IMG/VR virus record: IMGVR_UViG_3300043464_002011
Coordinates: 1-51,285 of that record
Origin: a virus
DNA: 51,285 nt
Reading direction: 5' to 3' (one strand)
Below the pieces are notes generated by a model. That model searched no databases, had not been told where the DNA came from, and saw nothing but the letters and a program-made list of their open reading frames with translations. Positions within the stretch are counted from its first letter, which is position 1; the number at the start of each line of letters is the position of its first letter. The translations under genes and the position numbers were made by a program. This document shows positions 21,907-50,709 of the stretch, one piece after another.

Positions 21907-23508
21907 TTAATAGATTTCACGCCATTGCATACTAACACCAACATTAGTTGATTGTGAGCCAAGATTAGTTGCAACTACTAGAAATATCTCGGAATCCGTA
22001 CTGTCAAAGTTTTGCACAATATAATTCTTTTTTGCAGATGATGGGATGTTACTAGCCGGTGCGCCTCCTGCTTTTTGACTACCTTGGGTAGATGCACCAA
22101 CAAATCCACTATCCATTTCTTGCCCATCTGTCCATGCGGTAGCAGTAGAATTATATTGAATACCTGAATCATTATGCACATCTACCCATGAATTACCTGT
22201 TAGAAATGCTTGTGCTGGTAATTTTATCAGTCTCCATTTAATATTAACACCATCACTGAATATATTCAAATTACCCATGCGAACAATCATTCTATTTGAA
22301 TATGTATGAAATGTATTTTTTAATCTAATTGCCATAACTGGCGCAGTAATTCCAGCATTTATCACTTTTAATGTAGGTGTAGTAGCAGCCCAATCCTGTC
22401 CCGCTTCAACATAGCCACCTTCACTGAATACTGTTGAACATATTTGATCCATAGATCCACCCGTAGTTGTACCAATATTTCTTATTTCGCATCTAACGGG
22501 AAGATTTGGATTACTCATGTAAACAGTTGGTAAATTATTGCTATGTAAAAATTCATGAACATAAACTACACCACCATCATGTGCAAATCCAACCCTAACT
22601 CTACCAACGCCCAGCCACTGGAAATCAATCGCTACTAATTGTGTATTAAGTATGTTCAACCATGATACAGTATCTAAATTCCATTGTGATTGAGTTTTCC
22701 TGACTTCAATGGGAGCGCCAGAAACAAAACTTCTTATTACCCATGATAAAGTCCCATCGCCTGCTTGTTCGAAATAAATTCCATCGTTGTCATCAAAGTA
22801 TCCAGTTCGTTTAACTACGTTCGGTGTAGCTGCTCCAAAATTTATACTACTAAAAATTACTTGAGATTTACCAGGCATATAATGATGATAAAATTTTGTT
22901 TGATGGATGATAAAACTAGATGGATTAGAAGTAGTGGTTAATGTACAACATGCTTTATTTTTTACAAATTCAATGGCACCACCATTTCCAGCATAATCAA
23001 TAAAAGCGGGGTCGATACCATATAAGTGCTTATAATCACCTAAAGTAAAAGGTTCTGAAATTCTTTGTCTACCGAATGCATCTAGGGCACCAGTTGAAAA
23101 TGAAATAGGGATAGGATTTCCACTATCATTTTTTATTTCAACTTCTGGTAAACTGCTAATTGAAACACTGCCATCCACTGTAATAGAACCACCATTATCA
23201 CTAATTGCCCATGGGGTAGTACCTTGTTTAACAGTCCAATCACCATCTTGCTGAACTTTTCCTATAACTGCAGAACTCGTTTTTAATGTTACTTGCCCAT
23301 TAGTACCGATTGATACTGGTGCAGAATGATTTTCATCCCATACATTCCCTAATGTATCGATTTGAATTCTAACCTTATCAACCAGAACATCGCCTTGTAA
23401 TGATATTCCATCAACATGTGTGCGAACAACTGGTTCACCAGACTCATTATATTGCATAGCTTTATGCAGATTTTTTAAATTATTATCGTTTGGGTGAATA
23501 TATGTCAT
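21907..23508 (-). CDS. Large virion structural protein, 533 aa
   Basis: The N-terminal 150 residues are made of short beta units ('QGDVLVDKVRIQIDTLGNVW', 'SITVDGSVSISSLPEVEI'). 'STGALDAFGRQRISEPFTLGDYKHLYG' (about residues 138-164) is a well conserved phrase of T4-like marine phage structural proteins and introduces a lectin-like beta-sandwich to residue 370. The last 150 residues contain 'NTFHTYSNRMIVRMGNLNIFSDGVNIKWRLIKL'. Shine-Dalgarno GAGG. Role inferred: structural, tail or baseplate periphery. Confidence 0.75.
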   Translation of the reverse strand: MTYIHPNDNNLKNLHKAMQYNESGEPVVRTHVDGISLQGDVLVDKVRIQIDTLGNVWDENHSAPVSIGTNGQVTLKTSSAVIGKVQQDGDWTVKQGTTPWAISDNGGSITVDGSVSISSLPEVEIKNDSGNPIPISFSTGALDAFGRQRISEPFTLGDYKHLYGIDPAFIDYAGNGGAIEFVKNKACCTLTTTSNPSSFIIHQTKFYHHYMPGKSQVIFSSINFGAATPNVVKRTGYFDDNDGIYFEQAGDGTLSWVIRSFVSGAPIEVRKTQSQWNLDTVSWLNILNTQLVAIDFQWLGVGRVRVGFAHDGGVVYVHEFLHSNNLPTVYMSNPNLPVRCEIRNIGTTTGGSMDQICSTVFSEGGYVEAGQDWAATTPTLKVINAGITAPVMAIRLKNTFHTYSNRMIVRMGNLNIFSDGVNIKWRLIKLPAQAFLTGNSWVDVHNDSGIQYNSTATAWTDGQEMDSGFVGASTQGSQKAGGAPASNIPSSAKKNYIVQNFDSTDSEIFLVVATNLGSQSTNVGVSMQWREIY

Positions 23509-31091: not shown

Positions 31092-31099
31092 TATTTATT
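31092..31099 (-). promoter_or_regulatory. Late promoter word AATAAATA (minus strand)
   Basis: AATAAATA about 17 bases before the epimerase ATG at 31074. It overlaps by two bases the -35 box of the divergent sigma-70 promoter. Confidence 0.55.
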
Positions 31100-31126
31100 G
31101 ACATCCACCATAAGAAGGAGTATAAT
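31098..31126 (+). promoter_or_regulatory. Perfect sigma-70 promoter at the head of the small-gene cluster
   Basis: TTGACA (31098-31103), 17 bases, TATAAT (31121-31126). The ATG at 31133 lies exactly where transcription should start, so the first gene would be read from a leaderless mRNA. An AAGGAG within the spacer would not be in that transcript. Confidence 0.8.
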
Positions 31127-31132
31127 TCATAC

Positions 31133-31444
31133 ATGAATATAGCGATATCAAAGTTAGACAAGCGATACACCGGTCATCAATACTTCAAATACAGCATGGT
31201 TTTCAGATGGCAACCTTCTTGGCAACAAGGTGATCGAACAGCAAAATTCTGTGAAATGCGTCAATGGTGTTGGGAAACATTTGGTCCTAGTTGCTCATTA
31301 AATGAATTCATGGAGTTAATGATTCATAACAAGCCAATAGTCAATGAAAGATGGTGTTGGACTAGTCCATATGAGGGAACTCCTGCTAGAATACTTATAA
31401 AAAGTGAAGAAGATAAGAACTGGTTTGCATTACGGTGGGGCTGA
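31133..31444 (+). CDS. WF-L[RK]W family protein 1
   Basis: 103 residues, first gene of the plus-strand cluster. It opens M.I.I.KLDKRYT, like the last member at 41006. It has the two landmarks of the family: an aromatic/Cys helix ('CEMRQWCWETFGP', residues 40-52) and the ending 'KSEEDKNWFALRWG'. Four further Trp residues lie between. The family ends are [FY]-x-x-[DN]-E-x-[DHE]-x-x-W-F-x-[LI]-[RK]-W-[GS]. No known domain recognised. Early expression is likely from the promoter at 31098. Confidence 0.7.
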   Translation: MNIAISKLDKRYTGHQYFKYSMVFRWQPSWQQGDRTAKFCEMRQWCWETFGPSCSLNEFMELMIHNKPIVNERWCWTSPYEGTPARILIKSEEDKNWFALRWG

Positions 31445-31680
31445 TGAAAAAACAATATAAGATAAGTACTGAATTTTTTTCAGCAAACGTGCATCCATAT
31501 GCAGTTTATTTAGGGGATGGTTTTTATGACGAATATCCTGAAATAATTGAATGGGCATCACAACAATTTGGTGGTGATGGTTGGTGTGAGACCCAAAATG
31601 AGAGATGGTCATATACATTTTCATATATATGGTTCGCAAATGAGATTGATAGGAATTGGTTTTTATTAAAATGGAGTTAA
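31444..31680 (+). CDS. WF-L[RK]W family protein 2
   Basis: 78 residues from the ATG at 31444, sharing one base with the previous stop (TGATG). The GGTGGGG coding for the previous protein's final RWG acts as Shine-Dalgarno. Helix 'EIIEWASQQFGG' and ending 'WFANEIDRNWFLLKWS'. The length and order of landmarks match the family. Function unknown. Confidence 0.7.
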   Translation: MKKQYKISTEFFSANVHPYAVYLGDGFYDEYPEIIEWASQQFGGDGWCETQNERWSYTFSYIWFANEIDRNWFLLKWS

Positions 31681-31681
31681 C

Positions 31682-31888
31682 ATGAGAATTAAAAAAATGC
31701 CGTTTGAGCACAATAGTTTTATATTGAGCAAAGATAATGGCAATAAAGGATTAGACACGAGAGAATGGAATGAAGTAGCAGAGTGGCTCACTGAACGAAA
31801 AATGAAGTTTAATATGCAAGGTGGCATTCTCACATTGTATAGAGAGATGGATTGCACTTTGTTCACATTAAGATGGATATCAGAATAA
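31682..31888 (+). CDS. WF-L[RK]W family protein 3 (divergent)
   Basis: 68 residues, MRIKKMPFEHNSF... Helix 'WNEVAEWLTERK' and ending 'LYREMDCTLFTLRWISE', in which WF is replaced by LF and three residues follow the RW. The TGGAG coding for the previous KWS serves as ribosome-binding site. One base separates the two genes. Confidence 0.65.
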   Translation: MRIKKMPFEHNSFILSKDNGNKGLDTREWNEVAEWLTERKMKFNMQGGILTLYREMDCTLFTLRWISE

Positions 31889-31912
31889 TTATTAAAATCC
31901 AAGGAGTGGATT

Positions 31913-32269
31913 ATGAAAGAGTTATCAAAACAATCAATTTTGTCAATGATACGCAGAGTACAACCAGAATTGATTGCACAAAATATCGTGGGGGTTCAAC
32001 CAATGACAAGCCAAGCTGGTCAGATATTTTCATTGAGAACGCGATATGATACAAGACCATTGCGTCAAGGCGATGATTATACTGATTACCAAGATTATGT
32101 ATATTGGGTTAGTCCAAGTAGTAAGATCCATGTTCAAGACTGCGTTAAATGGTGTGAAGAAGTATTCGGAGAAATTCTAGGTGATCGGTGGAAATTAGTA
32201 CCTGATGATCGATTTATTTTCCGAAATGCAGCTGACAGAAATTGGTTTATTATAAGATGGGGTGCTTGA
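31913..32269 (+). CDS. WF-L[RK]W family protein 4
   Basis: 118 residues, one of the longest members. The N-terminal 60 residues are unlike the others. Then helix 'VQDCVKWCEEVFGEILGDRW' and the ending 'FIFRNAADRNWFIIRWGA'. It has its own Shine-Dalgarno (AAGGAG) after a 24-base gap, so it may be translated independently. Confidence 0.7.
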   Translation: MKELSKQSILSMIRRVQPELIAQNIVGVQPMTSQAGQIFSLRTRYDTRPLRQGDDYTDYQDYVYWVSPSSKIHVQDCVKWCEEVFGEILGDRWKLVPDDRFIFRNAADRNWFIIRWGA

Positions 32270-32514
32270 TGAAAAAATTATCGCTTACTAGGGATGTCGC
32301 TGTTCGTAAAGCCAGTAAATATTCGGTTGCACATTCGCCGATGGTTGAATTTACTGGCAATCTTGATCAGGTATTCTCTAAACAAATGGAACTAGTTTAT
32401 AAGCATTTTGAACAAGAAAATAAATGTAAGATTAAGCCGTCATACGATGAGCCAAAATATGCAGAATTTGAGGACGATGCAAATTATACCTGGTTTTTAC
32501 TGAGATGGTCATGA
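32269..32514 (+). CDS. WF-L[RK]W family protein 5
   Basis: 81 residues from the ATG at 32269 (MKKLSLTRDV), one-base overlap with the previous stop. Helix 'KQMELVYKHFEQENKCK' lacks the usual WC. Ending 'EFEDDANYTWFLLRWS'. The GATGGGG coding for the previous RWG provides the Shine-Dalgarno. Confidence 0.68.
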   Translation: MKKLSLTRDVAVRKASKYSVAHSPMVEFTGNLDQVFSKQMELVYKHFEQENKCKIKPSYDEPKYAEFEDDANYTWFLLRWS

Positions 32515-32804
32515 ATAAAATAGCAGAAAAAACACTTAAAGAATTAGCTGATGACACTAAACAGTATGCAAAAGAGTTAGAAAAACAGCGAACCTTTAGA
32601 AATCGAATGATTGTGGTATTACGAGAAATACGGGATGATTATGCAAATAGTAACAGTAACTGGAGTATCACTTCGTTACTATCACATATTAAAGACACCT
32701 ATGGGTTGAACATACCAATGCGTGAAGGTCAAGTTGATGTAGATGCGGCAGTAATAGTAAACGAACACAAATATTTTTTGTTCAAAATAAAATATGGAAT
32801 ATGA
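32511..32804 (+). CDS. Helical small protein, possible distant family member
   Basis: 97 residues from the ATG at 32511 (ATGA overlap). The N-terminal 45 residues form a charged coiled coil ('TLKELADDTKQYAKELEKQRTFRN'). The middle 'WSITSLLSHIKDTYG' looks like a small helical domain. The end 'AAVIVNEHKYFLFKIKYGI' keeps the shape of the family motif with Y for W. Assignment to the family is tentative. Confidence 0.6.
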   Translation: MNKIAEKTLKELADDTKQYAKELEKQRTFRNRMIVVLREIRDDYANSNSNWSITSLLSHIKDTYGLNIPMREGQVDVDAAVIVNEHKYFLFKIKYGI

Positions 32805-33001
32805 AAACAGTAGATTTAAATCAGTTTGATCGACCAATGGAAATTTTCACTTGGATGTGTACTCATTGGGGTCCACCTGGATTAAATGATCGATGGGATT
32901 TACGAGAATTAACATATCTTGACTTAACTAATGAGTCAGATTTAACTTTTTTATTATTAAAATGGAATCTTAAAAAACATGATACATGGAATACAAAGTA
33001 A
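32801..33001 (+). CDS. WF-L[RK]W family protein with extended tail
   Basis: 66 residues, ATGA overlap with the previous gene. Helix 'MEIFTWMCTHWGPPGLNDRW' and motif 'LTNESDLTFLLLKWN', after which ten extra residues follow before the stop. The extension overlaps the start of the next gene by 23 bases. Confidence 0.65.
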   Translation: MKTVDLNQFDRPMEIFTWMCTHWGPPGLNDRWDLRELTYLDLTNESDLTFLLLKWNLKKHDTWNTK

Positions 33002-33311
33002 TAGCTCACATATATTGTGTCATTCAAATGGCAGTTCTTCAATAACATCCGGTTCATTACGAATACAAGATGGTCATTTAGAAGCATATACTGGTTATAG
33101 TTGGACACCAATAGCATCTGAGAATGGGATAGTTGGGTTAACGTCAAACGCTGAACAGGCGTTAGATTGGGCATGTAAAAAAATGATTGAAGAAAAAGAA
33201 GAACAAATTTTAATCGAAAAATATCCAGCATTAGCTAGTGCCAAAGGTCAATATGATATGATTAAGCAACTATGCAAAGCTGAAGAAGTGCTTGAAAAAA
33301 ATAATGGGTGA
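32979..33311 (+). CDS. Conserved phage hypothetical protein
   Basis: 110 residues. The first half ('SGSLRIQDGHLEAYTGYSWTPIASE') is a beta element with a self-contained 'V.dG.le.y.g..W.pi' phrase. The second half is a helix-rich 'SNAEQALDWACKKMIEEKEEQILIEKYPALASAKGQYDMIKQL' typical of a widespread small phage protein ('A.eWa..Km.ee......K.P.l..a...yd.m..L'). Not a member of the WF family. Start chosen at the first ATG; the 23-base overlap leaves it uncertain. Confidence 0.68.
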   Translation: MIHGIQSNSSHILCHSNGSSSITSGSLRIQDGHLEAYTGYSWTPIASENGIVGLTSNAEQALDWACKKMIEEKEEQILIEKYPALASAKGQYDMIKQLCKAEEVLEKNNG

Positions 33312-33314
33312 TAA

Positions 33315-33659
33315 ATGGGATTTATAATTTTAGTACTGTTACAATTTAAACATTGGTACATTGATTTTGTTAATCAAACGAATATTGAAGTTATTAGCAA
33401 AGGACATTATGGTGAGTTACCTGGTATAATGCATAGTTTAAAACATGGCTTTGCCACTGGTCTGATTATTCTATTGATCAACCCATATCTTGCTGCATAT
33501 ATTGGTTTGTTGGATTTTATTCTTCATTATCATATTGATTGGACTAAACGAAACTTTGGTAATCAAGATATCCAGAATCCTAAATTTTGGCGAGATCTTG
33601 GACTTGATCAGATGGCGCATCAATTGTGTTATATTGGATATATAGGAATGGTTTTATGA
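33315..33659 (+). CDS. DUF3307-like membrane protein
   Basis: 114 residues with hydrophobic segments near 2-12, 45-75 and 100-113. His and Asp residues lie within membranes ('MHSLKHGFATGLIILLI', 'LLDFILHYHIDWTKRNFGN', 'FWRDLGLDQMAHQLCYIGY'), matching the DUF3307 pattern (H...H.., D.HY.ID..K, LDQ..H). Similar genes are known in phages. Function unknown. Ends with ATGA overlap into the next gene. Confidence 0.72.
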   Translation: MGFIILVLLQFKHWYIDFVNQTNIEVISKGHYGELPGIMHSLKHGFATGLIILLINPYLAAYIGLLDFILHYHIDWTKRNFGNQDIQNPKFWRDLGLDQMAHQLCYIGYIGMVL

Positions 33660-33910
33660 GACGTTCAGTAGATATCAAACAACATGATTCTTGGACCAAA
33701 ATTACCATCAATAGATCAGTTCCTGTTGGAGTATACGATGACATGATTACATGGTGTCGTGAGCAAAATAGTGATTCATTTTTTTATGCTAATCAAGGCA
33801 AACCGGTGATCGATCCTAACACTTTTGAAATTAAATTTTTGCGACATGAATTCTGGTTTGAAAGACCAGAAATGGCAAATTGGTTTAATTTACGTTGGAG
33901 TCATTCATGA
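33656..33910 (+). CDS. WF-L[RK]W family protein
   Basis: 84 residues from the ATG at 33656 (MRRSVDIKQHDSW). Helix 'YDDMITWCREQNSD' and ending 'FWFERPEMANWFNLRWSHS'. The codons for LRWS include GTTGGAG, a Shine-Dalgarno placed before the next ATG at 33907. Confidence 0.7.
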   Translation: MRRSVDIKQHDSWTKITINRSVPVGVYDDMITWCREQNSDSFFYANQGKPVIDPNTFEIKFLRHEFWFERPEMANWFNLRWSHS

Positions 33911-34215
33911 TCAAATTTAATTTACAAATAAAAAATCCTTTTTTCAAAAATAGTAATTTTGAGAATTTATGGTTCAAAAGCGGATCATTTAATCCACACA
34001 AGCATTGGGAATTACAACTGATGCATTATGATTGGAACTTGTTTGAACTTAACCTGGTCATTAGTTGGTTAGGTGAAGATCACGCAGGTCCAAAGTTAGA
34101 GATTGGTATTTTAGGATATCAATTTGCAATATCAGTCTATGATAGTAGACATTGGGATTATTTAAATAATACATGGGAAGTATATGACAACAGAGAAGAA
34201 AACGAGAACACCTAA
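33907..34215 (+). CDS. Conserved phage hypothetical protein (HWELQL type)
   Basis: 102 residues from the ATG at 33907 (ATGA overlap). 'NPHKHWELQLMHYDWNLFELNLVISWLGEDHAGPKLEIGILGYQFAISVYDSRHWDY' is a beta-rich stretch with the 'HK.WE.Ql......lf.l......g.DHaG..l.i.llG' layout and 'D.RHWdy...W' end that I associate with small conserved phage proteins. Function unknown. Confidence 0.68.
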   Translation: MIKFNLQIKNPFFKNSNFENLWFKSGSFNPHKHWELQLMHYDWNLFELNLVISWLGEDHAGPKLEIGILGYQFAISVYDSRHWDYLNNTWEVYDNREENENT

Positions 34216-34462
34216 ACCACTAATTGAACACCGAGACATTTTGGGACGTTTGTTAAAGATTGGTGATGTTGTAGCAGTCAGTTTACACAATAATATGAAG
34301 ATAGCAAGAGTCACCAAATTGAATCCCAAAATGGTTAAGGTACAATTGTTGAATGTGAAAACTAGTACATGGTATACTGGCTCTCACAATAAGTACCCTG
34401 AAGATTTAGTGATAGTTGATGGGCCATATGTTACAATGTACATTTTAAAAACCAGTGCGTAG
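34184..34462 (+). CDS. Small SH3-like hypothetical protein
   Basis: 92 residues, overlapping the previous gene by 32 bases. A basic N-terminus (TTEKKTRTPKPL) is followed by 'LGRLLKIGDVVAVSLHNNMKIARVTKLNPKMVKVQLL', a pattern of small beta-barrels (KOW/SH3-like) that bind RNA or protein. It ends 'YVTMYILKTSA'. The overlap is long but the frame is clean. Confidence 0.6.
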   Translation: MTTEKKTRTPKPLIEHRDILGRLLKIGDVVAVSLHNNMKIARVTKLNPKMVKVQLLNVKTSTWYTGSHNKYPEDLVIVDGPYVTMYILKTSA

Positions 34463-34721
34463 AAAAATAACAAATTTAGATGATGTCCACTCATACGAGG
34501 CTAATCAACTTGTGGAGTGGCTAATTAAAAATGTAGGTCCAGAAGTATTGCAATTGTCCAATACATGGTATCGTGCAGGATATAATTGGGAATTATATTT
34601 AAAATCTGTATTTGACGATGATACTGGGTATGTGATTAAAGAAAATATATATGTGAAATTTGATGCCAGAATAGTTAAAAGAGCGCAAATGACATGGTTT
34701 AAATTAAGGTGGATGGCATGA
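34455..34721 (+). CDS. WF-L[RK]W family protein, GTG start
   Basis: 88 residues from a GTG at 34455, eight bases inside the previous gene. Helix 'ANQLVEWLIKNVGPEV', central 'TWYRAGYNWELYL' strand, ending 'ARIVKRAQMTWFKLRWMA'. There is no nearby in-frame ATG; the next methionine codon, in MTWF, is part of the end motif. Confidence 0.65.
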   Translation: MRRKITNLDDVHSYEANQLVEWLIKNVGPEVLQLSNTWYRAGYNWELYLKSVFDDDTGYVIKENIYVKFDARIVKRAQMTWFKLRWMA

Positions 34722-35041
34722 AACCTATATCAATTACAAAAGAACAATGGAAAAAGTTGTTGTTAGAATTACACAACGATTATCCTCCAAGTGTGCTAGC
34801 ACTCAGAGAAAAAACAAAACGTGTACTTGGGTTTACTCCGCGTGAACATACCGAATGGGTTGATAATCCTAAATATGCAGCGGAATATAAGAGTTACCTG
34901 GAAGCTGAACAGTCTTCATTCAGTTCATTATTTCTGTATGAACCTCAAAGAAAAGAGGCAAAAAAGATGATCAAATTAGATTTTTACGATGAAGCTAAAC
35001 GCACGTTTTTCTTGATTAAATACAGCGAGTTTTTAAAATGA
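34718..35041 (+). CDS. WF-L[RK]W family-like protein
   Basis: 107 residues from the ATG at 34718 (ATGA). The first 60 residues ('ITKEQWKKLLLELHNDYPPSVLALREKTKRVLGFTPREHTEWV') resemble the small conserved phage protein with 'W..L...L...P.....LRe..k..LGFt.R.h..W'. The end 'KMIKLDFYDEAKRTFFLIKYSEFLK' keeps the family motif with FF and KY. It may be a fusion of two modules. Confidence 0.65.
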   Translation: MKPISITKEQWKKLLLELHNDYPPSVLALREKTKRVLGFTPREHTEWVDNPKYAAEYKSYLEAEQSSFSSLFLYEPQRKEAKKMIKLDFYDEAKRTFFLIKYSEFLK

Positions 35042-35184
35042 GAGATTTAATACTAGAACGGATTGCTAACCACTGGGATGAATCCTTGGAAGAAATATTT
35101 GACATACGGGTTACTGATGTGTATAATTTATCAGATGAAGAATTATTCAACCTTTACAACACAATCTTTGAATTAGGAATATAA
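35038..35184 (+). CDS. Small acidic protein, 48 aa
   Basis: 48 residues from the ATG at 35038 (ATGA overlap): MRDLILERIANHWDES.., then 'FDIRVTDVYNLSDEELFNLYNTIF', ending in ELGI. Acidic and helical. 'DV..LSDEEL..L' resembles 'DICDMSDDDILQLI' in the protein at 50706, so they may be related. Short, but placed exactly between neighbours with a one-base gap to the next ATG. Confidence 0.6.
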   Translation: MRDLILERIANHWDESLEEIFDIRVTDVYNLSDEELFNLYNTIFELGI

Positions 35185-35185
35185 T

Positions 35186-35398
35186 ATGAAAATGGTACAG
35201 TGCGGCTTATTCAAACTTCCAGGTTTATCTTTTGATAAAGAGGAAATGACAGACGAATTACGTGACGAAATGATTGAATGGTCGGTTAGTTCAAAATGTG
35301 GTATTTTTATGACTGATCGTCTTTGGAGTTTTAAAAACGAAGGACATCGTGATTTCTTTATTTTGAGATGGACTGATCAGATTAATAAAAAAGCTTGA
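35186..35398 (+). CDS. WF-L[RK]W family protein
   Basis: 70 residues. Helix 'LRDEMIEWSVSSKCG', strand 'DRLWSFKN' and end motif 'NEGHRDFFILRWTDQINKKA', with seven residues after the RWT. Start one base after the previous stop; the next gene begins within its stop (TGATG). Confidence 0.68.
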   Translation: MKMVQCGLFKLPGLSFDKEEMTDELRDEMIEWSVSSKCGIFMTDRLWSFKNEGHRDFFILRWTDQINKKA

Positions 35399-35592
35399 TG
35401 AAATACACAATTCTATGTTCATGTCTATGTGATGACGGGTATGTTTGGTACGCCATTCATACCCTTGATTCAGATATATGGCGGTGGATACGCAATCAAT
35501 CTTCAGAAAAATGGGTTGATACTGCTGGTATATCATCATTTGACATCCGAGAAGATTTATTTACGATATTTGCGATACGATGGTCAGCTTAA
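35398..35592 (+). CDS. WF-L[RK]W family protein
   Basis: 64 residues from the ATG at 35398. Opening 'MKYTILCSCLCDDGYVWYAIHTLDSDIWRWIRNQ' has the aromatic helix ('IWRWI') and three Cys. End motif 'DIREDLFTIFAIRWSA' carries IF in place of WF. Of the same sub-type as 36153 and 37122 ('EELYT..'). Confidence 0.66.
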   Translation: MKYTILCSCLCDDGYVWYAIHTLDSDIWRWIRNQSSEKWVDTAGISSFDIREDLFTIFAIRWSA

Positions 35593-35603
35593 ATTGAGAT
35601 TTT

Positions 35604-35735
35604 ATGAAAAAGAGTATTAAATTAAACACGTCGCAATATGAGCGATTGATATCTCTACGGGATCATGAAAAGCCGTCATTGACAATGACTGCCTATGTTA
35701 AAGAACGGTTTACTTGGTTTATGTTACACGTGTGA
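35604..35735 (+). CDS. Short WF-family relative, 43 aa
   Basis: 43 residues from the ATG at 35604: MKKSIKLNTSQYERLISLRD.. and an end 'MTAYVKERFTWFMLHV'. It keeps TWFML but then ends LHV instead of LRW. The N-terminal half resembles a short helix with 'S.YERLI.LRD'. Possibly a remnant or minimal member. Shine-Dalgarno TTGAG before the ATG. Confidence 0.55.
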   Translation: MKKSIKLNTSQYERLISLRDHEKPSLTMTAYVKERFTWFMLHV

Positions 35736-35739
35736 TAAT

Positions 35740-35958
35740 ATGATTACTAAAGCGATATATGAACTGCCAGATAAAGCAAGACATTCAATTCAAGAATTTT
35801 ATTACGCCAATGCTGATCTCCTCACTCACGAATATATGGAATTGTTTCACAAAACATTTAGATGCACTACTGAGGAAATTTCATTTGGTGAATGGACATT
35901 GACGTTCAAAGATGAGGATTACACCTGGTTTATTTTAAAATGGGGATCTCATGGTTAG
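35740..35958 (+). CDS. WF-L[RK]W family protein
   Basis: 72 residues from the ATG at 35740. Middle 'SIQEFYYANADLLTHEYMELFHKTFRCTTEEISFGEW' and end 'LTFKDEDYTWFILKWGSHG'. Close relative of the next gene, which shares 'F..T[FY]RCT..EI' and 'DE[DN]YTWF[IV]LKWG'; this looks like a local duplication. Confidence 0.7.
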   Translation: MITKAIYELPDKARHSIQEFYYANADLLTHEYMELFHKTFRCTTEEISFGEWTLTFKDEDYTWFILKWGSHG

Positions 35959-36163
35959 ACTTAAATTGAATAATCATACTATATGGCCTATTTTGAATCG
36001 ATATTTCATAGAACACAAAGGATTATCCGATGGTAAGTTCATTGATCAGTTTGAAACTACTTACAGATGTACTGTCATTGAAATTGATGGGTTTTACGAA
36101 ATCGAATTTACGGATGAAAATTATACATGGTTTGTATTGAAATGGGGATACCATGACCAATAA
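35951..36163 (+). CDS. WF-L[RK]W family protein, duplicate of previous
   Basis: 70 residues, eight-base overlap. 'FIDQFETTYRCTVIEIDGFYEIEFTDENYTWFVLKWGYHDQ' aligns with the previous protein over its last 45 residues. The AATGGGGAT coding for the previous KWG supplies the Shine-Dalgarno. Confidence 0.7.
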   Translation: MVRLKLNNHTIWPILNRYFIEHKGLSDGKFIDQFETTYRCTVIEIDGFYEIEFTDENYTWFVLKWGYHDQ

Positions 36164-36392
36164 AATAATCAGACCAATTGTTGCTAGTAATAAGAAATTC
36201 AATATGTATGAGATTGAAACCGATAAGAATAATAACAAATGGTACTATTTACGCATATATTCAGCAGAAATACGTAGATGGGTTAAAACTTGTAATGTGT
36301 CATTATGGAAGAGGACCGAATGCATGACTATTGTTGATTATGCTATTAAAGAAGAACTATACACAATGTTTGTGTTGAAATGGGAAGCATAA
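36153..36392 (+). CDS. WF-L[RK]W family protein
   Basis: 79 residues. 'WYYLRIYSAEIRRWVKTCNVSLWKRTEC' and end 'AIKEELYTMFVLKWEA'. Same sub-type as 35398, 36842 and 37122 ('EI.RWVK', 'EELYT'). Confidence 0.66.
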   Translation: MTNKIIRPIVASNKKFNMYEIETDKNNNKWYYLRIYSAEIRRWVKTCNVSLWKRTECMTIVDYAIKEELYTMFVLKWEA

Positions 36393-36664
36393 TGCATACC
36401 CATTATACCCTTTTACAAAAATCAAAGAATTTTACACTTTTGCATTGTTGTGTTAAAAATAAAGAGTATTGGGCGGTTTCATTAACACCAACTGCAAAGG
36501 TTTGGTTATCTGAAAAAGAAATAGCAGATATTAAAGAGTTTTTTATATGTAATTCGTTAGTTAATTCATTGGGTCCAATGTCATGGAAGGTAGAATCGGA
36601 AGAATCAGCTCGGGCAATGTATAATTGGGTTAATATAAAATGGTCTGGATATGATGAAAATTGA
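36392..36664 (+). CDS. WF-L[RK]W family protein
   Basis: 90 residues from the ATG at 36392 (TAATG). 'YWAVSLTPTAKVWLSEKEIADIKEFFICNSLVNSLGPMSWKV' and end 'SEESARAMYNWVNIKWSGYDEN', where WV stands for WF and five residues follow the WS. Confidence 0.62.
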   Translation: MHTHYTLLQKSKNFTLLHCCVKNKEYWAVSLTPTAKVWLSEKEIADIKEFFICNSLVNSLGPMSWKVESEESARAMYNWVNIKWSGYDEN

Positions 36665-36845
36665 AACACAGCAACTTATAGAGTACCATGGATTACGAAT
36701 TCGCAATTCACCCGGTGAAAAGTATGATTGGTGCGCCAAGAACTTTGGAAATCTTGGTACTAGATGGTTCATTAAAAATAATTATATCTATTTCAAAAAT
36801 GAAGCAGATTTTTCATGGTATGTATTAATGTGGGGGGATAAATGA
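36651..36845 (+). CDS. WF-L[RK]W family protein
   Basis: 64 residues; two adjacent ATGs (36651 and 36654) make the exact start uncertain. Helix 'EKYDWCAKNFGNLGTRW', strand 'FIKNNYIYF' and end 'KNEADFSWYVLMWGDK'. A very clean example of the helix-strand-strand layout. Confidence 0.68.
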   Translation: MMKIETQQLIEYHGLRIRNSPGEKYDWCAKNFGNLGTRWFIKNNYIYFKNEADFSWYVLMWGDK

Positions 36846-37111
36846 ATGAAATAATGTGTGTACATGAGTTTATAATATCCAATCTTTCATACATGTACCC
36901 AGCCACTATGAACGGTCCAGATTATGACCCATATAACGAAATACTCGACAAATTCTATGAATCAGAAATTGGGCGATGGGTGAAACGACGAAGTAAATCA
37001 ATTAGGGTTTTAGGAGTCGCCGATTATGCATTTGATTGCAACAGATACCAAGTAATGGCAGAATTATCGGAAACTGACAAAACTTGGTTTTTATTGAAAT
37101 GGGGAAAGTAA
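36842..37111 (+). CDS. WF-L[RK]W family protein
   Basis: 89 residues, ATGA overlap. 'ESEIGRWVKRRSKSIRVLGVADYAFDCNRYQV' and end 'ELSETDKTWFLLKWGK'. The 'GRWVK' and 'VADYA' phrases link it to 36153 ('RRWVK', 'IVDYA'). Confidence 0.68.
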   Translation: MNEIMCVHEFIISNLSYMYPATMNGPDYDPYNEILDKFYESEIGRWVKRRSKSIRVLGVADYAFDCNRYQVMAELSETDKTWFLLKWGK

Positions 37112-37121
37112 TGGGGATTAT

Positions 37122-37328
37122 ATGTTCACAGTAGTAGATAAGCATTATAACAGCTTAATGAATGATTATTGGTATCGTATAGACGTCCAGGATCATAAAT
37201 TGATACACTGGATAGTAAAACAACCACAAAGACTATGGTATCATATTGAACATTCTAATCACGGGGTTTCATATACTATCAATGAAGAATTATATACCGT
37301 ACTTCAACTTACATGGGGAGACCAATGA
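37122..37328 (+). CDS. WF-L[RK]W family protein
   Basis: 68 residues, starting ten bases after the previous stop with GGGGATT as Shine-Dalgarno. 'YWYRIDVQDHKLIHWIVKQPQRLWYHIE' and end 'TINEELYTVLQLTWGDQ' (VL for WF, LTW for LRW). ACATGGGGAGACC, coding for TWGDQ, gives the ribosome site for the thioesterase. Confidence 0.63.
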   Translation: MFTVVDKHYNSLMNDYWYRIDVQDHKLIHWIVKQPQRLWYHIEHSNHGVSYTINEELYTVLQLTWGDQ

Positions 37329-37678
37329 AACAACACAAATTAGTTTTACAAAGCCATTTAAACCATTACGGGTTTCTTTTTGGCGGCGAGATGTTAAAGT
37401 GGATCGATACCGTTGGATATGTTGCAGTCAATGTTGAATTTCCAGGACACGAATTTGTCACAGTTGGATTGAACCAGGTTGTATTTCATAAAAGTATGCC
37501 AGCGGGTTCTATCCTTGAATTTGACACAAAGTTGATAAAAAAAGGCACGACATCAGCGACTTTCAACATTGATGTATTCTGTTTAAACAGAAATAATGAA
37601 TTAGTATTCACAACAGAAATCACATTTGTAGCAATTGATAAAGACGGTAATAAAACACCAATCAAGGACACACCATGA
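37325..37678 (+). CDS. Hotdog-fold acyl-CoA thioesterase
   Basis: 117 residues from the ATG at 37325 (ATGA overlap). 'LNHYGFLFGGEMLKWIDTVGYVAVNVEFPGHEFVTVGLNQVVFHKSMPAGSILEFDTKLIKKGTTSATFNIDVF' has the complete hotdog signature: the 'N..G.lfGG..l.W.D..g' helix with its Asp, 'vTv.l..v.F..p...G' and 'G.tS...'. It resembles YciA-type acyl-CoA hydrolases. Thioesterases of this kind are known in T4-like marine phages. Substrate not predictable. Confidence 0.85.
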   Translation: MKQHKLVLQSHLNHYGFLFGGEMLKWIDTVGYVAVNVEFPGHEFVTVGLNQVVFHKSMPAGSILEFDTKLIKKGTTSATFNIDVFCLNRNNELVFTTEITFVAIDKDGNKTPIKDTP

Positions 37679-37944
37679 CATTTATTCAAAAACATTTACA
37701 TCACGGTTTTCTAATGCAAGCTTTTGGCTTCAAATCAGCAGCTGGTTATCCAGTTCTTATCGATTATGAAAAATGCACCGATGACAAGATTGTTGGGTAT
37801 GTGTGCTTTGACTGTTATAATATGCCTTTAGAATGGGATATTAACGGTAGACCATTAAAATTACCATTACATCAAGGTCTGGGATTAGTACCAATCCGAA
37901 AAGTCGAAAGTTATGAAGTAATCCCAATTGAAGAACGAGTATAA
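37675..37944 (+). CDS. Conserved phage hypothetical protein
   Basis: 89 residues, ATGA overlap with the thioesterase. MTFIQKHLHHGFLMQAFGFKSAAG.., middle 'VGYVCFDCYNMPLEWDINGRPLKLPLHQGLGLVPI', and a last part rich in Glu. Two Cys in CFDC could bind a metal. No domain recognised. Confidence 0.6.
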   Translation: MTFIQKHLHHGFLMQAFGFKSAAGYPVLIDYEKCTDDKIVGYVCFDCYNMPLEWDINGRPLKLPLHQGLGLVPIRKVESYEVIPIEERV

Positions 37945-37951
37945 CGATTGA

Positions 37952-37985
37952 ATTCCTCCTACCAATAAATAATGATAGGAGGAAT
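37952..37985 (+). promoter_or_regulatory. Late-promoter / Shine-Dalgarno-sequestering hairpin switch
   Basis: ATTCCTCCTA (37952-37961) and TAGGAGGAAT (37976-37985) form a perfect 10-bp stem that contains the whole Shine-Dalgarno AGGAGG. The 14-base loop carries AATAAATA (37964-37971). A late transcript would start near 37978 and lack the left arm, leaving the ribosome site free. Read-through early transcripts would be closed. Confidence 0.7.
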
Positions 37986-37988
37986 ATC

Positions 37989-38183
37989 ATGACCGAAGAT
38001 GAATTCAAAACCAAATACCCAGATCATGTCCATTGCATTTGTGTTGAACGAACCGAAGATGATTTAAAGTGGGTGGTTAAATTAGCTACTATTTTAAGAC
38101 ATATTGGGTGTAGAGTATTCAGGGAATATGCAATACAGAATAATCCTAAATCTTCAATTCCCATTTTATCAATCGAGCCGTAA
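37989..38183 (+). pseudogene. 5' part of a small gene interrupted by a TnpB element
   Basis: 64 residues remain: MTEDEFKTKYPDHVHCICVERTEDDLKWVVKLATILRHIGCRVFREYAIQNN.., ending SIEP then TAA, with the first bases of the insertion following at once. Removing about 1278 bases (38181/82 to 39459/60) continues the same frame as 'FTEQDHANKFNELVEYVKNEKNTR' to TAA at 39531. The full protein would be about 88 residues. The shortened protein could still be made under the hairpin switch. Function unknown. Confidence 0.65.
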
Positions 38184-39460
38184 TACCCTGTCTTTTAAGG
38201 CGGGGATGAAAGGCGAATTATATACCCAAAATTTAATCATGTCAAGCAATTACCACTAAATAACTAATGCAAAACCTGAAATATAAATATCGATTGTACC
38301 CATCACAGGAACAGATCCAATTATTAAACCAAGTAGTTGGTAACAATCGCTATGTCTGGAATCATTTCTTAAATCAAGAAATGCAACAATACCAGATCGA
38401 TAACAAGTTCAGGTTTTTCAATAAAAACAGTGCAGATTTAACCAGTTTGAAAAAAGCTACTGAATGGTTGCAATCTTCACCATCAACGAGCTTACAACAA
38501 ACTATCCGCTATCTTGATGTGGCATTGAAAGCTAGTTTTAAAAAGAATTCTAAAGCTACTAAAGGATTTCCAAAGTTTAAAAAGAAACGAAACTTTTCCG
38601 GATCATTTACTCTAGCTATGGTCAATTCTGATAGAAACTGTGATTTCAATTCAGGTAAATTTAAAATACCTAATATCGGATGGATTAAATGCCGTTATCA
38701 TAGGGCATTACCTAGTGATTTCAAGACATGTCAAATAAAACAAGAAGCCCATAATTGGTTTGTTGTAGTTACATGTACAAAACCAAAATTACCTACGAGA
38801 ACTACTACTACTAATTCAGTTGGTATTGACATCAATTCATCTGAATACGTGTTAAGTAATGGCATTCGTTACCTAATTCCTAAATTTCTTCGTGAAAACC
38901 AAGCGAAAATTAAGAAATTACAACGAAAGCTATCTCGTAAGAAAAAAGGCAGTCATAATTACTTGAAAGCTCAGTTGAAGTTAGCTAAAATTAATTATCG
39001 TGTTAAACTAAAACGATTAGATTACTTTCATAAACTTTCTCGTCAGCTTGTCGATGATTATGATGTCATTTCATTAGAAGATTTAAATGTCAAATCAATA
39101 CAACAATGGAATGGTCATATAATCAAAGATAACGGATTTGCTATGCTTCGACAGTTTATTGAATATAAGTCTGAATTATACGGTGGTAAAACGGTAATAA
39201 TTGACCGTTATTACCCGTCTAGTAAGACTTGTTCAAACTGTGGTAGTATACAAGACATCGAGTTATCAAGTAGAACATATGACTGCAAGTCATGTGGAGA
39301 AGTAATAGATCGCGACTTAAATGCCGCGATTAATATTGATAGGGCAGGAACTGCCCGACTTAATGCCTGTGGAGATCCCCGGTATGATCAATTAGTAATG
39401 ATTGGTCAATTACTAGGTATCAATGAATCAGGAAGCCTCGTCCTTTAGGGCGAGTTAGTT
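38184..39460 (+). mobile_element. TnpB-only IS200/IS605-type element (IS1341-like)
   Basis: Left end: imperfect hairpin CCCTGTC-TTTTAA-GGCGGGG at about 38185-38204. Right end: hairpin CTCGTCC-TTTA-GGGCGAG at 39437-39454, within the conserved 'GAATCAGGAAGCC..' end common in the family. No tnpA is present, so it depends on a transposase elsewhere. The exact edges are within a few bases because such elements make no target duplication. Confidence 0.75.
38267..39448 (+). CDS. tnpB: TnpB RNA-guided endonuclease, apparently intact
   Basis: 393 residues, full length. The N-terminal helix-turn-helix and wedge region begins 'YKYRLYPSQEQIQLLNQVVGNNRYVWN'. RuvC-I Asp188 ('GIDINSSEYVLSNG'), RuvC-II Glu271 ('ISLEDLNV'), zinc ribbon Cys322/325/340/343 ('CSNCGS', 'CKSCGE') and RuvC-III Asp350 ('DRDLNAAINI') are all present. 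TnpB cuts DNA guided by an omega RNA made from its own 3' end and the flanking sequence. TAAATA followed by ACTA precedes the ATG. Confidence 0.9.
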   Translation: MQNLKYKYRLYPSQEQIQLLNQVVGNNRYVWNHFLNQEMQQYQIDNKFRFFNKNSADLTSLKKATEWLQSSPSTSLQQTIRYLDVALKASFKKNSKATKGFPKFKKKRNFSGSFTLAMVNSDRNCDFNSGKFKIPNIGWIKCRYHRALPSDFKTCQIKQEAHNWFVVVTCTKPKLPTRTTTTNSVGIDINSSEYVLSNGIRYLIPKFLRENQAKIKKLQRKLSRKKKGSHNYLKAQLKLAKINYRVKLKRLDYFHKLSRQLVDDYDVISLEDLNVKSIQQWNGHIIKDNGFAMLRQFIEYKSELYGGKTVIIDRYYPSSKTCSNCGSIQDIELSSRTYDCKSCGEVIDRDLNAAINIDRAGTARLNACGDPRYDQLVMIGQLLGINESGSLVL

Positions 39461-39480
39461 CACAGAACAAGATCACGCGA
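39330..39480 (+). ncRNA. Probable omega (right-end) RNA of the TnpB element
   Basis: In this family the guide RNA comes from the tnpB 3' end plus the right-end hairpin, and the guide is the first 15-20 bases outside the element, here from about 39461. The hairpin at 39437-39454 is clear. The 5' boundary is a guess. Confidence 0.45.
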
Positions 39481-39533: not shown

Positions 39534-39714
39534 CATTGTAACCATACATTTTACATTCGCAAAAGAAATCATGATCTTTATCAGGGAATTACGTGATATC
39601 GGATTAATTCAAGGCATTGATTTTGATTTTGAAATAAAATCCTATCCACAAAGAGCATGTTTTTATTTTAAACGCCCTGAACATGCAACTTTCTACCGAC
39701 TCAAATTGTCATAA
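39514..39714 (+). CDS. WF-L[RK]W family protein (divergent)
   Basis: 66 residues, MKKIRDNIVTIHFTFAKEIMIFIREL.. The end 'ACFYFKRPEHATFYRLKLS' has the family strand-helix-strand shape with FY for WF and LKLS for LRWS. Shine-Dalgarno GGAG lies 12 bases before the ATG, within the end of the interrupted gene. Confidence 0.6.
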   Translation: MKKIRDNIVTIHFTFAKEIMIFIRELRDIGLIQGIDFDFEIKSYPQRACFYFKRPEHATFYRLKLS

Positions 39715-39743
39715 TTGACATTCTTAATTCAATTTGATATAAT
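39715..39743 (+). promoter_or_regulatory. Perfect sigma-70 promoter
   Basis: TTGACA at 39715-39720, 17 bases, TATAAT at 39738-39743. Transcription start near 39750, then GGAG before the ATG at 39770. Renews early transcription after the TnpB insertion. Confidence 0.8.
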
Positions 39744-39769
39744 GAATTTTTATCATTTTGGAGTTAAGA

Positions 39770-40228
39770 ATGTCAATCACCTTTTATACCAAACAAGGCA
39801 GAAGATACAAGCCAGTCAGCGAGTATGATGATAAACTACTGAGTTCATACCCAGATGGAGCACATTTGGTTGTTTGCAAGCCTGGTTCTACTAGTACAAA
39901 ATACAATGTTGACCCAGCTTTTGCACCAATGATTGCAGCTGGCAGATATGCTATCGATAAATTAGCCACCGCTATTGTAGAAGGCACTATTGCTAGACCA
40001 TCTATAACATTAAACACTGAGCAACAAGCTGCATGGGATGCTTTTGTCGCAACCATGAAAAAAGAAGATATTTCAATGATATCTTACCCGAGTGCAGCCC
40101 AAGCAGCAGAGACCATCATGAAAGATCTAGAACAACAAACTGCTCAACTGTTAGAGAACCCAGCTGTGAAAATCAGCTACGACAACTTTCAACTTTTATC
40201 AAAACTTACATTGGAGAAACAAAAATGA
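39770..40228 (+). CDS. Conserved phage hypothetical protein, 152 aa
   Basis: 152 residues from the ATG at 39770 (GGAG at 39760; a TTG four codons earlier is less likely). 'MSITFYTKQGRRYKPVSEYDDKLLSSYPDGAHLVVCKPGSTSTKYNVDPAFAPMIAA' is a small beta domain, followed by helices ('NTEQQAAWDAFVATMKKE', 'AAQAAETIMKDLEQQTAQLLENPAVK'). Proteins with 'YP.G.hLv...PG....ky.v.P..A..lAA' are common in large phages. Role unknown. Ends with ATGA into the next gene. Confidence 0.7.
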   Translation: MSITFYTKQGRRYKPVSEYDDKLLSSYPDGAHLVVCKPGSTSTKYNVDPAFAPMIAAGRYAIDKLATAIVEGTIARPSITLNTEQQAAWDAFVATMKKEDISMISYPSAAQAAETIMKDLEQQTAQLLENPAVKISYDNFQLLSKLTLEKQK

Positions 40229-48707: not shown

Positions 48708-48938
48708 TTAGTCCTCACTAAACTGGCGTTTTATTTTTGTGTGTAAAAGACCAGCTCCTACCAAGTAGAACTGTTCGTTATCACTGAGTTTCATGTAATC
48801 ATCTATGTTATAGCAATGTGATCTGAATACTGCATCAATTTGCATAAGCATTCCTTCAGCAAATTTCTGGATTAGTTCTTCTTCGCTGTTAACATCAGTT
48901 TTCGCGGATTCATAAATGCATTTAATCATTTTATTCAT
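48708..48938 (-). CDS. Hypothetical protein, 76 aa
   Basis: MNKMIKCIYESAKTDVNSEEELIQKFAEGMLMQIDAVFRSHCYNIDDYMKL..: helical and acidic, with 'DNEQFYLVGAGLLHTKIKRQFSED' at the end. ATGA overlap with the gene upstream. No match recognised. Confidence 0.6.
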   Translation of the reverse strand: MNKMIKCIYESAKTDVNSEEELIQKFAEGMLMQIDAVFRSHCYNIDDYMKLSDNEQFYLVGAGLLHTKIKRQFSED

Positions 48939-49183
48939 ATCACACCTGTTAACTTAAAATGTTGAACAAAGTTATTGTAGTCTTGTTCATCTCTAAAATG
49001 AAATTTATACACACCAGTTCTACCACGAAATGCTCTAGGGAACCAGTAGTGTGGTGATTCTGGTTGATGTCTTGGTTCTATATTTTCCTTGCACCATTCA
49101 ATCATACTTACGTAAACGATTGGGCGTTGCATAGGATCAGTTATCCATTCTTTAAATGGTATGGTTGCTATGTAAAAACTCAT
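48935..49183 (-). CDS. WF-L[RK]W family relative, minus cluster
   Basis: 82 residues. Helix 'YVSMIEWCKENIEPRHQPESPHYWFPR' has the family WC helix and following aromatic strand. End 'VYKFHFRDEQDYNNFVQHFKLTGVI' keeps the position of the motif but with NF and HF. Last gene of the minus cluster and the most diverged at its end. Confidence 0.63.
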   Translation of the reverse strand: MSFYIATIPFKEWITDPMQRPIVYVSMIEWCKENIEPRHQPESPHYWFPRAFRGRTGVYKFHFRDEQDYNNFVQHFKLTGVI

Positions 49184-49380
49184 TCCAAGTACTCCGAAAA
49201 ATTAAGTATAAACCAGTTCATATGTTCTTCGTATGCAAACATAAACGTATACTCTACACTTCCCCAATGATCTGTCATTTTATTACAAAAATCTGCCATT
49301 TCATTATAATATTTTGGAAAATATCGGCTTGGCTTAAACTGTACTTTCCATGGGAATGGATCGTTATAACCATCGCTCAT
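49180..49380 (-). CDS. WF-L[RK]W family protein, FSEYL type
   Basis: 66 residues. 'YYNEMADFCNKMTDHWGSVEYTF' and end 'AYEEHMNWFILNFSEYLE'. The codons TCG GAG TAC for SEY give CGGAG, a Shine-Dalgarno for the next gene, which starts within its stop. Confidence 0.7.
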   Translation of the reverse strand: MSDGYNDPFPWKVQFKPSRYFPKYYNEMADFCNKMTDHWGSVEYTFMFAYEEHMNWFILNFSEYLE

Positions 49381-49616
49381 AAGTACTCCGAAAATCTAAT
49401 GATAAACCAGGTTCGGTGATGTTCTTTTTCAAAATAAAACATTTTTACACCACGATATACTACCCAATCCCACGTAAAGTAATATGTACCAATATGGTCT
49501 CTGCACCATTGGGTCATTTCTGAAATTATTTCTGAAAATATACCGTAATCGTCTTTTATTTTTACAGGGAATTTACAATGTGCATGATCCAATATATTAT
49601 CAATAACCGCATTCAT
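49377..49616 (-). CDS. WF-L[RK]W family protein, FSEYL type
   Basis: 79 residues. 'IISEMTQWCRDHIGTYYFTWDWVVYRG' and end 'YFEKEHHRTWFIIRFSEYL'. ATGA overlaps on both sides. Paralogous to 49613-49852 along its whole length ('VWCK', 'YYWEW'). Confidence 0.72.
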   Translation of the reverse strand: MNAVIDNILDHAHCKFPVKIKDDYGIFSEIISEMTQWCRDHIGTYYFTWDWVVYRGVKMFYFEKEHHRTWFIIRFSEYL

Positions 49617-49852
49617 AGGTACTCCGAAAATTTAAGTATAAACCAGGATCGGTTTTCTTCTGAACTAAAGCAAAACGTTCTCACAGTTCCAGCAGGGGAC
49701 CATTCCCAATAATAATTATAGGTACGGAAATTTTTCTTACACCAGACCCGCATTACTGATATTGTCATAATGTCAGCTAAAATAAATTCCAAGCCATATG
49801 GACAATCATGAACAAAATCGAAATCACTGGTATTGATAGTTGTTAATTTCAT
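49613..49852 (-). CDS. WF-L[RK]W family protein, FSEYL type
   Basis: 79 residues. 'TISVMRVWCKKNFRTYNYYWEWSPAGTVRTF' and end 'FSSEENRSWFILKFSEYL'. Same length as its neighbour and a clear tandem relative. Confidence 0.72.
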   Translation of the reverse strand: MKLTTINTSDFDFVHDCPYGLEFILADIMTISVMRVWCKKNFRTYNYYWEWSPAGTVRTFCFSSEENRSWFILKFSEYL

Positions 49853-50097
49853 GAGTATTTCAACATAAACCAGGTTGCTTTTGAATCATCAAAAAATTCT
49901 AAATATGATTCTTCGCATTCTTTATCATCCACCTTAACAGCACCTGCTAATTTTAGTTCTTTTTTTATGATGATAGAACGACCTTCTGAAAATTTGCCTG
50001 GTTCTAATTTTAACCGAGTATCAACATCTTTGATGAAATTCTGCCACCAGCTTGGTTGACTTTCTAAAAATTCATCGTATTCTAAATATAATTTCAT
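49849..50097 (-). CDS. WF-L[RK]W family protein
   Basis: 82 residues from the ATG at 50097 (MKLYLEYDEFL). An upstream in-frame ATG falls inside the previous gene's end motif. 'PSWWQNFIKDVDTRLKL' and end 'YLEFFDDSKATWFMLKYS'. Confidence 0.68.
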   Translation of the reverse strand: MKLYLEYDEFLESQPSWWQNFIKDVDTRLKLEPGKFSEGRSIIIKKELKLAGAVKVDDKECEESYLEFFDDSKATWFMLKYS

Positions 50098-50300
50098 GAC
50101 CACCTCAAAATAAACCAAGTCTTATGTTCATCACTCTTGAAGGTAATCCGAGTAATGCCATCCACACCCTCAACTTTAATGATATTTGGATCTAAACTTT
50201 TAACAAAATTAAGCCATCGTTGGTGAGTCTCGGTTTTCAAATACAGTAGTGTAATGTTATGACCTACTGTACTGCCCTCTTTTAAATCTAGATCACTCAT
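50094..50300 (-). CDS. WF-L[RK]W family protein, tandem duplicate A
   Basis: 68 residues from the ATG at 50300 (MSDLDLKEG). Shares 'FVKSLDPNIIKVE' and the last 19 residues (TRITFKSDEH..) with the next gene. GAGGTGG, from the codons of the upstream gene's LRW, precedes its ATG. Confidence 0.73.
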   Translation of the reverse strand: MSDLDLKEGSTVGHNITLLYLKTETHQRWLNFVKSLDPNIIKVEGVDGITRITFKSDEHKTWFILRWS

Positions 50301-50500
50301 GACCACCTCAAAATAAACCAAGTCTTATGTTCATCACTCTTAAAGGTAATCCGAGTGAATCCTTTCACGCACTCAACTTTAATGATATTTGGATCTAAAC
50401 TTTTAACAAAATCATACCATAGGTGTTGAGGACCGGCTTTACAAAACAGTTGTGTAATGTTTTTGTTTACTGTATCTCCTTTTAAATATAGAACACTCAT
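50297..50500 (-). CDS. WF-L[RK]W family protein, tandem duplicate B
   Basis: 67 residues from the ATG at 50500 (MSVLYLKGD). The end of about 50 bases, including 'WFILRWS', is nearly the same as in duplicate A, while the N-terminal half has changed. The newest visible duplication in the cluster. Confidence 0.73.
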   Translation of the reverse strand: MSVLYLKGDTVNKNITQLFCKAGPQHLWYDFVKSLDPNIIKVECVKGFTRITFKSDEHKTWFILRWS

Positions 50501-50709
50501 GACCACCTCAAAATAAACCAATTACGTTGTTCTTCGTTGGCAAAGTAAAAATGATTATACCGTGATGTAAATTGGCTACCAAATTGGTCTTTACACCATA
50601 GCTCCATTTCTTGTTGATTTGTGTTTCGTATTTCATCATGAGTACGAAGAACGTCAGCACCGAATTTAAATTTAAACGCAATCCCTGCATCGAAAATTTC
50701 TATGATCAT
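50497..50709 (-). CDS. WF-L[RK]W family protein
   Basis: 70 residues, MIIEIFDAGIAFKFKFGADVLRTHDEIR.. Helix 'QQEMELWCKDQFGSQF', strand 'RYNHFYF' and end 'ANEEQRNWFILRWS', the best match to the family consensus. Its ATGA start overlaps the stop of the previous gene. First family member of the minus cluster. Confidence 0.75.
   Translation of the reverse strand: MIIEIFDAGIAFKFKFGADVLRTHDEIRNTNQQEMELWCKDQFGSQFTSRYNHFYFANEEQRNWFILRWS

Follow-up and report, generated by a model that had tools for sequence, protein, structure and literature searches.

The locus considered here raises the question whether a hairpin in front of a small phage gene acts as a switch that keeps the gene silent on early RNA and releases it on late RNA. 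It lies in a 51,285-base IMG/VR virus record, which was analysed over its full length and is called the window in the following. The window is classified as a fragment of an uncultured T4-like phage because the structural protein encoded at 21907-23508 (minus strand) is 51% identical to its counterpart from cyanophage S-RIM32 over 74% of its length; a search of isolated phages for similar DNA gave no match. The sequence-only reading of this DNA had described a perfect 10-bp inverted repeat whose 3' arm contains AGGAGG and whose 14-nt loop contains AATAAATA, and this anatomy is confirmed in the sequence, with the following features:

37952-37961, plus strand: 5' arm of the hairpin (anti-Shine-Dalgarno, anti-SD), ATTCCTCCTA, read from the sequence
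37962-37975, plus strand: hairpin loop of 14 nt, CCAATAAATAATGA, read from the sequence
37976-37985, plus strand: 3' arm of the hairpin, TAGGAGGAAT, containing AGGAGG, read from the sequence
37977-37982, plus strand: Shine-Dalgarno sequence (SD) AGGAGG, 6 nt before the ATG at 37989
37964-37971, plus strand: loop motif AATAAATA, putative late promoter of the gp55 type, inferred start at about 37977
37675-37944, plus strand: upstream ORF of 89 aa, stop codon TAA at 37942-37944, 7 nt before the hairpin
37989-38183, plus strand: guarded ORF of 64 aa, remnant of an 83-aa gene, with a different C-terminal end following a tnpB insertion

The minimum free energy of the segment 37945-38030 (-17.1 kcal/mol) was equalled by 3 of 200 dinucleotide shuffles. 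A perfect stem of 8 bp or longer covers the SD region at two of the window's 97 crude gene starts, one of them being the start at 37989, and only the stem before this start encloses ATAAATA. If the SD and the spacer are kept fixed and the upstream 48 nt are shuffled, a stem of 10 bp or longer arises in 0.025% of the shuffles. No family in Rfam matched the hairpin.

The predicted cost of opening the SD and the start codon was then compared between a long read-through RNA and an RNA started at the promoter. In the long RNA, where the 3' strand of a stable hairpin includes the SD, opening the start of gene 37989 is predicted to cost 15.4 kcal/mol, while the predicted late RNA from the loop promoter keeps a weak fold of 4.8 kcal/mol. 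The value for the long RNA ranks fourth among the 258 distinct starts of the lineage set (median 4.4), which were taken from the window and the related fragments G001, G003, G006 and G007, and it stands at a z of 4.1 against shuffles of the gene's own upstream region, none of 60 being as high. The same computation gives decreases from 14.7 to 1.9 kcal/mol for T4 gene e, from 14.5 to 1.6 for I-TevI, from 15.8 to 3.3 for gene 49, and from 13.2 to 0.4 for I-TevII. The folding contrast between long and short RNA that had been proposed for this locus is thus supported by the comparison with the lineage starts and by the T4 controls.

The significance of AATAAATA comes from its position and not from its count, since its nine occurrences against 11.3 expected are unremarkable. 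The motif NATAAATA is found 24-34 nt upstream of 16 of the 258 distinct lineage starts and is the most frequent of 21 permutations at this distance; the 20 other letter arrangements average 3.7, with a maximum of 13 that belongs to the overlapping word TAAATAA. The first base of NATAAATA is free in the lineage (five A, six G, four C, five T), and orthologous promoters keep ATAAATA with a varying first base (MAIVSISRIQQRRG / MAVVQISRIQQRRG), represented by CATAAATA in G001 and by TATAAATA in G006 and G007. On the plus strand of the window, NATAAATA is combined with an SD and an ATG only at the 37964 site. Two minus-strand promoters, at 30237 and 31074, show equal spacing, with the box 25-26 nt before the ATG and an AGAGG SD that begins about at the expected RNA start. 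A function of NATAAATA as late promoter has been reported for cyanophage S-PM2 (PMC2984593), and the late box of T4 begins at position -13, which is occupied by A in 9 of 50 late sites (PMC2988020). By the T4 rule, the late start is predicted at 37977, the first A of AGGAGG. This position falls after the 5' arm, so that an RNA starting there would lack the arm. Its leader would be as short as 12 nt and would open directly with the SD, which would be cut if transcription began 2 nt further downstream. With this lineage-wide positioning and the T4 comparison in its support, the earlier assignment of the loop motif as a late promoter appears credible. The late sigma factor gp55 (phrog_234) was not found in the window or in the nearest fragments G000-G007, all of which are incomplete, but is present in four larger contigs bearing relatives of the window's structural protein; the control search was positive in all five named T4-like phages (T4, S-RIM32, S-PM2, syn9 and P-SSM2).

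An early RNA reading through the hairpin is plausible, because two perfect sigma-70 promoters precede it and the terminator scan lists no plus-strand terminator-like site between 31126 and 37952:

31098-31126, plus strand: perfect sigma-70 promoter (TTGACA-N17-TATAAT) with which the small-gene cluster begins, 12/12 match
35099-35127, plus strand: second perfect sigma-70 promoter, inside the cluster and upstream of the hairpin, 12/12 match

The hairpin at 37952-37985 is probably best read as an early-off/late-on switch of the T4 type. Long RNAs from the early sigma-70 promoters of the plus-strand small-gene cluster would cross the hairpin and fold its 10-bp stem, by which AGGAGG would be buried and gene 37989 poorly translated. 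Later, a gp55-type RNA polymerase would initiate from the loop box AATAAATA at about 37977, and the resulting late RNA, devoid of the 5' arm, would expose a free SD at its extreme 5' end and allow translation of gene 37989, a timing that may be of importance to the phage. As a separate observation, the regions 31444-37328 and 48708-50709 contain arrays of many small ORFs on both strands, whose products end with a common TWFxLKWG-like motif and apparently represent a large paralogous family. One small ORF at 31913-32269 (plus strand) is an apparent chimera, in which a 46-aa stretch with 48% identity to the T4 major capsid protein gp23 is followed by a tail resembling the neighbouring small proteins.

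The guarded gene is intact, with 83 aa, at the loci L005 (in G004) and L006 (in G005), and is cut after codon 53 by a tnpB element in the window, G001, G002 and G003, four of the six contigs concerned:

38267-39448, plus strand: tnpB (IS605 OrfB / TnpB), within the element interrupting the guarded gene

The sequence-only reading had missed that the ORF is a tnpB-truncated remnant of this longer gene. The protein has no match in isolated phages and none in PHROG or Pfam, and its AlphaFold model, of moderate quality (pLDDT 76.6) with a beta-alpha-beta-beta-alpha arrangement, matched no fold at E <= 0.001. All six contigs (the window and G001-G005, with the loci L002-L006) share one and the same hairpin sequence, with and without tnpB. 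The hairpin therefore predates the insertion, since it is present in G004 and G005 without tnpB, and no covariation is obtainable for it because all six copies are identical. The syntenic ortholog in the diverged fragment G007 (33-35% identity) has neither the hairpin nor NATAAATA; it follows another small gene, and its start overlaps the upstream stop. As the six contigs share the hairpin and the G007 ortholog is without it, the putative switch is regarded as a lineage-specific feature, either gained here or lost in G007.

The inserted element itself spans 38147-39465 (plus strand). The sequence AGAACAAGATCACGCG after its right end continues the intact allele of G004 and G005, where TTTAT immediately precedes AGAACAAGATCACGCG, and a TnpB guide could therefore target the intact allele. 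At the left flank, about 18 nt also differ from the empty allele, and the left end of the element carries a perfect sigma-70 promoter facing outward (38245-38217, minus strand), which is directed across the remnant gene and the hairpin in antisense orientation.

The main rival explanation, which we regard as rather improbable, is translational coupling: ribosomes terminating on the 89-aa ORF at 37944 would unwind the base of the stem and initiate again at 37989, and the stem would then tie translation of gene 37989 to that of its neighbour and not to the transcript class. Such a mechanism would be consistent with the distance of only 7 nt between the stop codon and the stem, with the lower fold stability computed after in silico removal of the sequence to 37954 (-13.3 kcal/mol) or 37957 (-8.0 kcal/mol), compared with -16.8 kcal/mol before, and with the coupled layout of the G007 ortholog, the start of which overlaps the upstream stop. 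However, as estimated from footprint size, a ribosome at the stop codon should extend no further than about 37954 and leave 7 bp of the stem, and coupling gives no reason for the exact placement in the loop of a late promoter of the lineage type, spaced by the usual 25 nt. It is unlikely that the hairpin serves as an operator for a regulatory protein or as a processing or cleavage site, for example for a RegB-like nuclease cutting GGAG, with AATAAATA being incidental. RNA operators do occur in T4, and SDs are cleaved at GGAG by RegB, but structure inhibits RegB (PMC3014915), Rfam is without a match, and no such protein was identified. Little probability is likewise assigned to a neutral chance palindrome around a strong SD. 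The absence of the hairpin from the diverged G007 ortholog, the dispensability of a gene that could be broken, and the 0.07 stems of at least 10 bp over the SD region that shuffles yield per window, a value that leaves the promoter out of account, would fit this explanation, whereas the coincidence with a correctly spaced late box, the z value of 4.1 and further instances in the lineage and in T4 speak against it. Finally, a stable hairpin adjoining a start codon may recall an RNA thermometer or a transcription terminator, but both are very improbable, since the perfect stem, with -16.5 kcal/mol at 37 C and -23.6 kcal/mol at 20 C, is too stable to melt at freshwater temperatures, no T-run follows the stem on either strand, and the hairpin is absent from the terminator scan list.

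The design of the proposed early-off/late-on switch is less exceptional than the sequence-only reading had stated, as it recurs within the lineage and among further uncultured phages. An 11-bp hairpin (TTCTCATACC-..CATAAATA..-GGTATGAGAA) is found in fragment G006, which codes for a structural protein 95% identical to that of the window. It precedes a 364-aa ORF whose start shows the highest opening cost in the lineage (22.1 kcal/mol, decreasing to 4.0). This ORF is located between two parts of nrdA (G006:56112-62500, loci L117-L118), with a further ORF downstream; nrdA is apparently intein-split, its N part corresponding to T4 nrdA and its C part giving matches to Ribonuc_red_lgC and, just below the cut-off, to Intein_splicing. 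The 364-aa ORF has no Pfam match, and its GIY-YIG likeness was seen by eye only. A hairpin-guarded ORF within nrdA parallels mobE in nrdA of phage Aeh1, which has been named as a hairpin-controlled endonuclease gene (PMC2988022, PMC3014915). A 258-aa ORF at G001:8311 (minus strand, L018), also GIY-YIG-like by eye, was observed with CATAAATA and a masked start (11.7 to 2.1 kcal/mol).

A survey of IMG/VR viral contigs with the pattern TCCTCCT..ATAAATA..AGGAGGA (CCTCCT/ATAAATA/AGGAGG) returned 58 stretches, compared to 13 and 13 for two permuted motifs, many of the 58 being duplicates or palindromes without a start codon and the second control representing mostly the same contigs. Only about ten distinct hairpins were counted as preceding an ATG. 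Three of the survey hairpins precede homing endonucleases (L200, L206 and L222, the last in a record that carries gp55), one precedes a head-tail adaptor (L218), and others lie before terminase subunits (L199, L205). A family of palindromes of the form TCCTCCT-N-ATAAATA-N-AGGAGGA (L184, L188, L192, L196, L197, L201, L208 and L215) shows variable inner stem bases, is followed by no start codon and does not represent the switch.

The window contains a second hairpin of related geometry, with an early promoter in place of the late one:

39714-39776, plus strand: second promoter-in-loop hairpin, before gene 39770-40228 and 1.8 kb downstream of the first
39715-39743, plus strand: perfect sigma-70 promoter of gene 39770, with the -10 box TATAAT at 39738-39743 between the hairpin arms

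Here the SD, the AUG and the opening codons of gene 39770-40228 are sequestered by base pairing with the -35 box and the spacer. The start of this gene is the second-highest masked in the lineage, at 20.2 kcal/mol in the long RNA, and RNA from the gene's own promoter would lack the 5' arm, with a cost of 2.8-3.1 kcal/mol. A 12/12 sigma-70 promoter is present at three distinct loci among the 35 that encode relatives, and each of the three has the hairpin (20.4, 13.6 and 14.5 kcal/mol in the long RNA; 2.8, 3.2 and 0.5 in the own-promoter RNA), and the remaining relatives have no strong promoter and costs of 1.6-8.6 kcal/mol. As read from these divergent orthologs, the hairpin shows compensatory changes: in the register common to L256 and L258, the pairs 16-54, 17-53 and 20-50 are changed on both sides and none is broken, and all three sequences, a small number, show double changes in 4 of 12 pairs, compared to 0-2 with the arms slid. 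In the stem of the window itself, pairing is strongest when the register is shifted by two. The early-type hairpin provides the compensatory evidence that is not obtainable from the identical copies of the hairpin at 37952. Strong masking effects are also seen in T4, for 5 of 22 starts with an early-type promoter (1.4 expected) and for 7 of 22 late starts; the strongest early-type case is the start at 62740, which we take to be regB from the protein sequence. Over the whole window lineage, a strong effect was found for 3 of 40 early promoters with 2.6 expected, and the early version therefore belongs to particular genes and not to all.

No earlier report of early-promoter hairpins was met in the openly licensed papers searched (CC0/CC BY/CC BY-SA), and one could exist elsewhere. 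With one late-type and one early-type masking hairpin in the same window and several T4 early genes of equal layout, it may tentatively be proposed that promoter-in-loop hairpins represent a general lock in T4-like phages, which restricts translation to RNA from a gene's own promoter and applies to early sigma-70 and late promoters. The early-promoter geometry kept by compensatory change suggests a wider rule, by which dense phage operons prevent the translation of read-through RNA.

The sequence-only reading had referred to T4 genes e, soc and I-TevI as users of such a switch, and this is borne out by the literature (PMC3014915, PMC2988022) and by the recomputed contrast for e and I-TevI. In T4 gene e, and also in soc and 49, the SD is buried in early read-through RNA and the late RNA lacks the 5' strand of the stem, the late promoter adjoining or lying inside this strand (PMC3014915). 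The masking layout and the energy contrast of e are the same as those of the 37952-37985 hairpin, but e is a lysis gene studied by experiments, whereas the gene in the window codes for a small tnpB-truncated protein known from sequence alone. For I-TevI, I-TevII, I-TevIII, segB and Aeh1 mobE, a late promoter in the hairpin and sequestration of the SD on early or middle transcripts have been described (PMC2988022). The I-TevI box in the T4 sequence is AATAAATA, as in the loop of the window, but these hairpins guard endonucleases, and the gene guarded in the window is not one. The NATAAATA late promoters of cyanomyoviruses (PMC2984593) match the loop motif and the lineage consensus, and no report of an SD-masking hairpin for them was found in the openly licensed papers searched. 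The early/late RNA switch of T4 is thus probably also in use among T4-like phages of freshwater that are far removed from T4, where it probably guards genes besides lysis and homing genes. The device itself is known from T4, and what is new is probably its occurrence in another lineage.
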